Source: Wenzhouxiangella sp. XN79A
GTDB lineage: Bacteria; Pseudomonadota; Gammaproteobacteria; Xanthomonadales; Wenzhouxiangellaceae
Assembly (NCBI RefSeq): GCF_012272825.1
Contig: NZ_JAAWWS010000134.1
Span: 62,001 to 126,000 of the forward strand
Length of the DNA stretch: 64,000 bases
Direction: 5' to 3'
This document shows, piece by piece, positions 2,972-59,657 of the stretch. The notes beneath the pieces were generated by a model. That model ran no database searches, had not been told where the DNA came from, and was given only the letters and a program-made list of their open reading frames with translations. A program made the translations under genes and the position numbers. How positions within the stretch are numbered: position 1 is the stretch's first letter; each line of letters starts with the position of its first letter.

Positions 2972-3116
2972 ATGGTGCCGGCTGAGGGATGGCTGTCGCT
3001 GCGCGCCAGCGAACTCGCGGCGGAGCCGCTCGCTTCGAACCGTTCATTCGTCGGGGGTTCGAATCGTGCCCATGCCGAAGGTCGCGGTAAACCGAAACAA
3101 CGGATTCAAATGAACG
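2972..3116 (-). repeat. 145-bp tandem repeat, unit distal to tRNA-Thr
   Basis: Differs from the adjacent unit (3117-3261) at three positions. Bases 2973-2990 are an exact copy of the 18-base 3' end of tRNA-Thr including CCA, in the same orientation as the tRNA. Bases 3050-3065 hold GTCGGGGGTTCGAATC, the exact reverse complement of the strand reading across the T-arm. A weakly similar, decayed stretch lies further out (about 2875-2970). Confidence 0.85.
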
Positions 3117-3261
3117 ATGGTGCCGGCTGAGGGATGGCTGTCGCTGCGCGCCAGCGAACTCGCGGCTGCGCCGCTCGGTTCGAACCGTTCATTCGTCGGG
3201 GGTTCGAATCGTGCCCATGCCGAAGGTCGCGGTAAACCGAAACAACGGATTCAAATGAACG
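3117..3261 (-). repeat. 145-bp tandem repeat, unit proximal to tRNA-Thr
   Basis: Second unit of the array, with tRNA-Thr 3'-end copy at 3118-3135 and inverted T-arm copy at 3195-3210. The next period would start at 3262, exactly where the tRNA gene's own CCA end lies, so the tRNA is in register with the array. On the minus strand the array follows immediately after the tRNA, as the 178-bp repeats do at E. coli tyrT. Confidence 0.85.
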
Positions 3262-3262
3262 A

Positions 3263-3338
3263 TGGTGCCGGCTGAGGGATTCGAACCCCCGACCCTCTGA
3301 TTACAAATCAGATGCTCTACCACCTGAGCTAAGCCGGC
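3263..3338 (-). tRNA. tRNA-Thr (anticodon TGT)
   Basis: 76 nucleotides including an encoded CCA. The acceptor stem pairs GCCGGCT with its 3' counterpart, the D-arm reads TAGCTCAGGTGGTAGAGCA, the anticodon stem-loop is TCTGA-TTTGTAA-TCAGA, and the T-arm contains GGTTCGAATCC. The anticodon TGT reads ACA threonine codons. The gene sits downstream of the SPOR gene on the same strand and is followed by the 145-bp repeats. No U-tract terminator is seen directly after it. Confidence 0.95.
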
Positions 3339-3420
3339 GTCTTCCGGGAAGATTCTGAATTGTATCGGACACCAGGATGGCTGTCGCTGCGCGCCAGCGA
3401 GCTCGCGGCAGCGCCGCTCG

Positions 3421-3495
3421 GTTCGAACCCGGGACCCGCCGCTTGCCGTGACAATCGACAGATCGGATGCTCTAGCCACTGAGCCAAGGCATTTG
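3421..3495 (-). pseudogene. Degenerate tRNA-like sequence
   Basis: On the minus strand this reads GCCTTGGCTCAGTGGCTAGAGC (D-arm-like), then a stretch that does not fold into a proper anticodon arm, then GGGTCCCGGGTTCGAACC, which matches a T-arm. The acceptor stem does not pair. It is followed at 3373-3420 by another copy of the interior of the 145-bp repeat (GATGGCTGTCGCTGCGCG). I read it as a tRNA relic caught up in the rearrangements around tRNA-Thr. Confidence 0.45.
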
Positions 3496-3523
3496 GCCGC
3501 ACACGGACTTGCTTCCAGTGTAC

Positions 3524-59383: not shown

Positions 59384-59457
59384 TGGGGGATCGTCTAGTG
59401 GTAGGACTACGGACTCTGACTCCGTCAGCGGGGGTTCGAATCCCTCTCCCCCAGCCA
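59384..59457 (+). tRNA. tRNA-Gln (anticodon CTG)
   Basis: 74 nucleotides including encoded CCA. Acceptor TGGGGGA / TCCCCCA, D-arm TCGTCTAGTGGTAGGAC, anticodon stem-loop ACGGA-CTCTGAC-TCCGT giving CTG (CAG codons), T-arm GGGGGTTCGAATCC. It is followed by a strong terminator and by inverted partial copies of its own 3' end. Confidence 0.95.
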
Positions 59458-59464
59458 ACTCGCG

Positions 59465-59493
59465 AATGCCCGGCTCTGCCGGGCATTTTTTTT
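59465..59493 (+). terminator. Rho-independent terminator of tRNA-Gln
   Basis: Stem AATGCCCGGC / GCCGGGCATT with a TCT loop and a run of eight T. A further weak CTCGC/GCGAG pairing extends the stem. Confidence 0.9.
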
Positions 59494-59500
59494 GCGAGTC

Positions 59501-59657
59501 GGCCGGGGGAGAGGGATCGATGCAAGGCCGCGCAGCGGCCGCCGCAACCCGAGTAAAGCGAGGGCAAGCCGCACAGCGGCGCAGTCCATCCCACCCGCGA
59601 CGCTGCCTCTCTTCCAGGCCGAGCCCGCCGGGCTTTTTTTCCGGCTGGGGGAGAGGG
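59501..59657. repeat. Inverted copies of the tRNA-Gln 3' end
   Basis: GGCCGGGGGAGAGGGAT (59501-59517) and GGCTGGGGGAGAGGG (59643-59657) are reverse complements of the 3' end of tRNA-Gln (one mismatch in the first). They lie 142 bases apart, with a second terminator-like hairpin between them. A looser analogue of the tRNA-Thr array. Confidence 0.65.
59622..59640 (+). terminator. Second hairpin-and-T-run below tRNA-Gln
   Basis: AGCCC-GCC-GGGCT followed by seven T. It resembles a shortened copy of the terminator at 59465-59493 and lies in the repeated segment. Confidence 0.6.

Follow-up and report, generated by a model that had tools for sequence, protein, structure and literature searches.

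Why should a tRNA gene be followed by tandem copies of its own 3′ end, and why should each copy be 18 nt long? The question is raised by a tRNA-Thr gene in the window analysed here (the whole stretch of 64,000 nucleotides from Wenzhouxiangella sp. XN79A). The locus is a tRNA-linked repeat (TLR) with features that are not described in the accessible literature. According to the accessible part of PMC8144298, the first description of TLRs dates from 1978, in E. coli, a species for which 22 have been reported; the phrase 'tRNA-linked repeat' is used there and in the available text of an editorial (PMC9245011). An explanation for the repetition of 18–19 nt of the tRNA end was not found in the accessible literature, and a literature search largely confined to papers available without subscription showed, by titles and opening lines of abstracts, nothing on T-loop inserts in bacterial tRNA copies.

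The preliminary description of this DNA had reported two 145-bp units with three differences on the strand of tRNA-Thr, each including the exact 18-base tRNA 3′ end with CCA and an exact 16-base reverse complement of the T-arm. All of these were confirmed, and the features of the locus are as follows.

3263–3338, minus strand: intact tRNA-Thr(TGT) gene (Rfam tRNA, 73.5 bits)
3117–3261, minus strand: downstream tRNA-linked repeat unit 1, 145 bp
2972–3116, minus strand: downstream tRNA-linked repeat unit 2, 145 bp
3118–3135, minus strand: copy of tRNA-Thr nucleotides 59–76 in unit 1, 18 nt with CCA
2973–2990, minus strand: copy of tRNA-Thr nucleotides 59–76 in unit 2, 18 nt with CCA
3136–3179, minus strand: hairpin element of unit 1, 44 nt, 3′ of A58
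2991–3034, minus strand: hairpin element of unit 2
3187–3194, minus strand: short linker from antisense arm to GGTTCGA in unit 1
3195–3210, minus strand: antisense T-arm of unit 1, exact 16-nt reverse complement
3050–3065, minus strand: antisense T-arm of unit 2, exact 16-nt reverse complement
3379–3422 (match 3375–3429), minus strand: third element copy, upstream of tRNA-Thr (class U), in the T-loop context of a remnant
3423–3500, minus strand: degenerate tRNA-like remnant, 5′ part to GGTTCGA, carrying the upstream element (recognised by eye)
3359–3387, minus strand: promoter-like site ahead of tRNA-Thr, GCGACA-17-TACAAT (consensus match only)

The two units share 98% identity, and the repeated tRNA-Thr 3′ end (ATCCCTCAGCCGGCACCA) is exact at 18 of 18 nt in both. 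Each unit is arranged in the order antisense T-arm, linker, GGTTCGA, 44-nt insert, and ATCC with the rest of the tail, the antisense T-arm covering the end of the variable loop, the 5′ strand of the T-stem and the T-loop as their reverse complement. The insert has the form ACCGAG-hp1-CGAGTTCGC-hp2-CC, with two mini-hairpins, and splits the T-loop sequence as GGTTCGA^element^ATCC, followed by the remaining tail. The T-loop of tRNA-Thr(TGT) is TTCGAAT, in which A58, A59 and T60 were assigned in standard numbering from the standard T-loop. As the insert lies directly after A58, the repeated tRNA end consists of nucleotides 59–76, which are 18 nt, and the 18–19-nt length of the repeats is thus explained simply by a T-loop break that follows A58. 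No terminator was found between tRNA-Thr and its repeat in the window.

The remnant that carries the upstream element copy was reported by no tRNA finder. The −35 hexamer of the only promoter-like site before tRNA-Thr falls inside this upstream copy. The neighbouring genes examined (seven frames, 1–6.1 kb) are ordinary ones, with matches to biotin ligase, type III pantothenate kinase, a SPOR protein and MerC.

The window includes a second tRNA gene, which is followed by a probable relic of the same type.

59384–59457, plus strand: tRNA-Gln(CTG) (tRNA search and Rfam)
59505–59596, plus strand: probable decayed tRNA-linked repeat after tRNA-Gln

This putative decayed unit has an inverted tail (GGGGGAGAGGGAT), mini-hairpins and a degenerate tail (ATCCCACCC), and model R3 gave a match at 59476–59549 (E 0.0067 in 91 kb). 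At the level of 15 of 18 positions, no copy of the tail was found behind tRNA-Gln.

A 501-bp blastn query gave 20 matches in the window's genome, including the query itself and a few plain tRNA genes, and a hairpin-blind pattern (CCGAG-N-CGAGYTCGC) was found 37 times in that genome versus 10 times for the reversed control, indicating that the repeats are not due to chance. On reading, the first hairpin was self-complementary or nearly so in 16 of the 37 pattern matches, and these 16 are located in the tRNA clusters of contigs C14, C17, C33 and C35 or at the start of contig C5. A comparison with related genomes, as proposed in the preliminary description, was made using a covariance model of the insert (R2), which matched 34 of 43 genomes of Wenzhouxiangellaceae, the family of the window's genome. 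When 398 genomes were drawn from the whole order under stricter filters, 35 matched R2 at E ≤ 1e-5, and 33 of them belong to this family. Single weak R2 matches were seen in two genomes from other families of the same order (G229 and G275; E 2.3e-6 and 4.0e-6).

An exact-pattern scan of the genome collection identified 63 stretches, many of them from Wenzhouxiangella records, and the element is present on two contigs of Wenzhouxiangella sp. 15190. A tRNA gene on the same strand lies within 800 nt in 40 of the 63. Ten others are near the end of the stretch, eight of which were repeat-like on reading and two (L064 and L105) were judged to be chance matches. Among the 13 with no same-strand tRNA, 12 were judged to be chance and one (L049) has a Glu-type tail. 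No viral contig matched the exact pattern. In four loci assigned to Bacteroidia, a tRNA-Cys copy whose T-loop contains the insert precedes an intact tRNA-Cys, in a fifth the insert follows tRNA-Arg, and a bin titled Gemmatimonadota contains an array of three units behind tRNA-Met, the Bacteroidia and Gemmatimonadota names being those of metagenome bins, in which binning errors occur. The design thus occurs outside the Enterobacterales, in Wenzhouxiangellaceae and in Bacteroidia and Gemmatimonadota bins, suggesting that TLRs are no enterobacterial oddity. One Bacteroidales bin (G046) includes an upstream tRNA-Arg(ccg) copy whose T-loop holds the insert (L192), and also a further insert locus with no recognised tRNA (L185).

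Rfam contains an RtT family, and a covariance search for it had been suggested as a check on the locus. No RtT match was obtained, either in the window at the gathering score, where the repeats match no Rfam family, or in seven related loci at E ≤ 0.5, where only tRNAs and sub-threshold matches were seen. A sub-threshold match to sX4, a proteobacterial sRNA family, was found at L039:2814–2973 (32.7 bits; gathering 70; tRNA-Ser and terminator).

The position of the element was examined in six genomes, in which R2 gave 94 matches, 63 of them scoring at least 40 bits. Of these strong copies, 56 are within 1 kb of a tRNA gene on the same strand (43 downstream and 13 upstream). By a rough expectation, the surroundings of 44 tRNAs, at 1 kb on each side and on one strand, amount to ~1.4% of a genome, so fewer than one of the 63 strong copies would be expected there. 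The remaining seven are four members of an Arg array on contig C33 of the window's genome and three copies that have a tRNA-like tail and are located close to a contig end. Among the 31 matches that scored below 40 bits, 21 have a tRNA gene nearby on their own strand; one, at 31.2 bits, lies on the other strand, and several of the rest appear to be false.

Two classes of copy were distinguished. In the downstream class, the typical order is terminator, inverted tRNA segment, GGTTCGA, insert and tail with CCA, while the upstream class consists of tRNA copies that carry the insert within the T-loop and have a 3′ end truncated ahead of CCA. Near-complete tRNA copies with the element in the T-loop were found for Ser, Arg and Cys, and some tRNA-Ser copies have an additional insert in the D-loop, at TCGAA^T (GGTCGAA^TG). 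In stretch L072, one element is nested inside another. Measured from the tRNA end, the first insert downstream lies at a characteristic 70–74 nt for Ser (166 at one Ser of G014), 74–87 nt for Thr and Arg, and 141–147 nt for Glu (68 in G014). Between one and four downstream copies lie within 1 kb at 25 tRNAs of the six genomes. Location in a tRNA operon with one to five copies per locus is a TLR trait that the window shares, with two downstream copies; the Arg array of the window's genome, with eight R2 matches over 6.7 kb, exceeds that range. This Arg(acg) array (L038; C33:28000–40500) is interrupted by genes, one of which encodes a subtilase, and its units may have served as recombination sites.

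Host tRNAs were compared at position 59 using 94 tRNA rows, from which six Ala(ggc) rows were set aside (these precede Glu in one operon, in which the units follow Glu), leaving 22 hosts. A59 is present in 21 of these 22, in a set in which rows are non-independent and, apart from those of the window's genome, were drawn from element neighbourhoods. Two tRNAs depart from the A59 rule, namely Arg(cct) in G014, which has C59, and an intact tRNA-Arg in L079, which has G59. In the other 66 rows, some of which are hosts by R2 with a motif missed by the regular expression, position 59 is A in 33, G in 23, C in 6 and T in 4.

The E. coli tyrT repeats had been named in the preliminary description as an established parallel, and this was borne out by the common break point, the inverted tRNA segment, the mini-hairpin insert and the 18–19-nt tail. 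The K-12 tyrT/V repeats comprise the tRNA tail, a spacer, GGGGAAGGATGAGAAGCTTCGA, which is an altered inverted T-arm, then GGTTCGA, a mini-hairpin insert, and AATCC with the tail. In eight K-12 stretches, Tyr (4), Arg(ACG) (3) and Lys (1) were the only tRNAs with copies of their end; the eight copies are of 18–19 nt and from A59 tRNAs, and presumably belong to the 22 TLRs of PMC8144298. The Lys unit includes a 13-nt T-arm antisense match, and in the three Arg units the match is no longer than 8 nt. When 26.9 kb of E. coli sequence was searched with model R1, trained on Wenzhouxiangellaceae, the four tyrT/V inserts were the top-ranking matches (E 0.00031, 0.00066, 0.0037 and 0.035), and the Arg and Lys copies were not found. 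R2 matched two of the four tyrT/V inserts (E 0.0018 and 0.018), found the Lys copy at E 0.097 only and did not find the Arg copies. The matches of both models to the tyrT/V inserts start at model position 1. R3 gave no match at E ≤ 10 in the 1.3-kb tyrTV stretch (L193).

Like the window units, the E. coli TLRs (tyrT/V, rtT/RttR) form tandem copies with a break 3′ of A58, and at Tyr and Lys an inverted tRNA segment precedes the insert. However, the tyrT TLRs are linked to another tRNA and have a mostly different insert sequence. For Wenzhouxiangellaceae, upstream copies and D-loop inserts in tRNA-Ser were recorded as well. The E. coli repeats RrA, RrB and RrF belong to the same class by virtue of a 3′-end repeat but have 5S rRNA as the host. 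The E. coli thrU gene for tRNA-Thr(UGU), next to birA and coaA, resembles the tRNA-Thr of the window in its location near biotin ligase and pantothenate kinase genes; it has T59 and no repeat.

It is probable that tRNA-linked repeats are due to a tRNA-specific, non-autonomous hairpin element at the T-loop break, possibly also giving rise to read-through RNA. In its anatomy, each unit is a 3′ fragment of a tRNA gene with a mini-hairpin element lodged 3′ of A58, preceded by an antisense copy of the T-arm. The element would be a non-autonomous mobile repeat that acts as single-stranded DNA, perhaps of the non-template strand, and enters the T-loops, and in tRNA-Ser also the D-loops, of duplicated tRNA genes. 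One intact tRNA gene would be retained by selection, and copy number would change via recombination between tandem units. The units would sit in the transcription unit of the tRNA, and read-through RNAs would carry the tRNA 3′ end together with an antisense arm able to pair with the tRNA T-arm. The fixed break, the unpaired motif found in bins of three phyla, the use of two loops and the nesting in L072 favour an element entering at TCGA^A, and the tRNA-sense orientation of all 56 strong near-tRNA copies, together with stems of DNA type, suggests that single-stranded DNA is involved. Mean element identity was 0.793 for the same genome and another tRNA, 0.774 for another genome and the same tRNA, and 0.760 where both differ; with so small an excess within genomes, support for recent spread is weak.

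An alternative that is possible, though doubtful, is that the repeats are regulatory or processing RNAs, in which a read-through antisense arm pairs with the T-arm of the preceding tRNA and blocks or delays its maturation, or that they act as sponge RNAs like E. coli 3′ETS-leuZ or as protein-binding RNAs like RrB. Evidence in favour comes from the antisense arms. When first downstream units (47 distinct ones) were compared with the final 46 nt of their own tRNA, the longest exact antisense match had a mean of 11.8 nt, compared with 7.2 nt for other tRNAs and 5.75 nt for shuffled spacers (floor 5), and it reached at least 10 nt in 32 units. All 13 Thr units have an antisense match over 15–17 nt, and three of them, on tRNAs with a changed T-stem, carry the matching change in the antisense arm. 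At least 13 nt was reached in 11 of 14 Arg units, one of them against the acceptor stem, and the single Gln unit has a 12-nt match. At the sequence level, the antisense arm follows its host tRNA in the Thr units and in most Arg units. Against a regulatory RNA, most Ser and Glu units lack a good arm (at least 10 nt in 3 of 12 and 3 of 7, respectively), the arms there being mostly imperfect.

Among the 24 Thr and Arg units in which the antisense match reaches 13 nt or more, 22 have a predicted minimum-energy fold with the arm paired to the tRNA, at 2.0–34.3 kcal/mol below separate folding, although these energies are for unmodified RNA and ignore tRNA modification and co-transcriptional folding. 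The tRNA together with both window units folds with a z of −3.26. The earlier proposal that a read-through RNA could pair with the tRNA T-arm is therefore supported as a predicted pairing, with an arm that is tRNA-specific in Thr and most Arg units. In the accessible part of PMC8144298, the TLR class is said to have had 'no known function' before the study of three 5S rRNA-linked repeats in E. coli (RrA, RrB and RrF), which are transcribed by read-through and bind Hfq and CsrA in vitro. However, the other 19 E. coli TLRs were below 0.01 as CsrA binders, and a starvation-recovery claim for an E. coli tyrT repeat was withdrawn, according to the same text. In the available part of PMC4606813, a table of E. 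coli sRNAs assayed for effects on biofilm and motility shows none for RttR. A demonstrated tRNA-processing or regulatory role, towards which the preliminary description had leaned, is not supported, given the withdrawn claim, the result for RttR, the lack of an Rfam family match and the scarcity of G-U steps in the stems.

These stems were examined in three alignments. A3 and A4, with 18 and 19 sequences from 68 distinct elements, left out the Bacteroidia, Gemmatimonadota, truncated and irregular elements, and A5 included 29 of 37 long forms. Paired cells make up 92.5% (A3), 99.6% (A4) and 99.0% (A5), percentages that are inflated because sequences with clean hairpins were chosen for the alignments. 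Counting sequences and not events, double-sided pair changes numbered 28, 36 and 51 (115 in total) and one-sided changes 0, 1 and 2 (3 in total), with 14 of 186, 1 of 242 and 3 of 290 cells unpaired (18 in total). The stems thus covary: where a change preserves pairing, it is nearly always a double Watson-Crick swap, and G-U steps are nearly absent, a feature that is less affected by the choice of clean hairpins. The scarcity of G-U steps suits DNA hairpins, or stems perfected by copying, at least as well as RNA, and counts against a regulatory RNA. Unusual stability as single-stranded DNA was not seen for elements or units (z −1.09 and −1.99 for two elements; −0.43 for two units).

It is unlikely that there is no mobile element and that fold-back template switching at tRNA genes makes the repeats and keeps them self-complementary. 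Stems that change almost only by Watson-Crick swaps would be consistent with such a process, as would the inverted tRNA tails across the terminator and the palindromic make-up seen in many units. However, an unpaired motif (ACCGAG...CGAGCTCGC) is common to Gammaproteobacteria and the Bacteroidia and Gemmatimonadota bins, and many tRNAs carry the same element, which also occurs nested within itself.

Movement of a REP element by a RAYT (Y1) transposase appears quite improbable. Like REP/RAYT elements, the T-loop element is a short, palindromic, non-autonomous repeat with a hairpin make-up, the window's genome encodes one Y1 transposase, and RepRanger criteria place E. coli rttR among the REP-containing sRNAs (PMC12306157, in the part available). 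However, the site here is tRNA-specific, and the Y1 gene of the window's genome is flanked by a different, unrelated repeat (TGTTGGAGGCCGC...GCAAGCTCCCTCCAACAG). A Y1 transposase occurs in 15 of the 34 genomes that have elements and in 4 of the 9 that lack them; for reverse transcriptase, the counts are 11 of 34 and 1 of 9. As their presence does not follow that of the elements, neither enzyme explains the distribution. Both RAYT and reverse transcriptase were rejected as the mobiliser, with no association across the 43 genomes. The Y1 (RAYT-like) gene lies on contig C31 (L112), among many copies of its REP. Rickettsia palindromic elements are also hairpin elements within genes, RNA genes included, but have a different sequence and are not known to be confined to one tRNA position.

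Direct repeats of a tRNA 3′ end are a hallmark of integrase attachment sites, and these repeats and the several kb, including the subtilase gene, that interrupt the Arg array would fit tandem attL/attR sites of a tRNA-targeting integrase, but this is hardly credible as the window units are 145 bp with no protein of their own, the hairpin insert separates two T-loop halves, and copies are found in D-loops and upstream as well.

The hairpin element at the T-loop break may be part of something wider. A plausible reading, to which we give somewhat less than an even chance, is that there is a family of non-autonomous DNA hairpins in at least three phyla, which enters at one position (in the T-loop directly after A58, or at an identical TCGA^A of the tRNA-Ser D-loop) and in the tRNA sense only, with a downstream form that has a host-tracking antisense T-arm, and that the E. 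coli TLRs, including rtT, are members or relics of this family. If true, these elements would be parasites specific to tRNA genes, and their target might be the non-template strand, single-stranded where such genes are heavily transcribed. The decades-old TLR puzzle gains a clear and testable anatomy from the T-loop break and its recurrence in unrelated bacteria. This points to an enzymatic or mutational process directed at a single position in tRNA genes, and the many natural variants can be used to ask whether the antisense arm affects tRNA expression.

Truncated units in L054, L066 and L095 were considered as candidates for an autonomous version of the element and rejected. The frames tested there encode Fic, FMN reductase, Usp and Lon-like proteins, and hence no recombinase was seen between the hairpins. 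Stretch L104 ends at the break. In L054 (6931–7998), a Fic-domain gene directly follows the truncated unit behind tRNA-Thr, and in genome G037 (C1:3792391–3820990) nine RVT_1 matches, four of them with identical scores, were found within ~29 kb.
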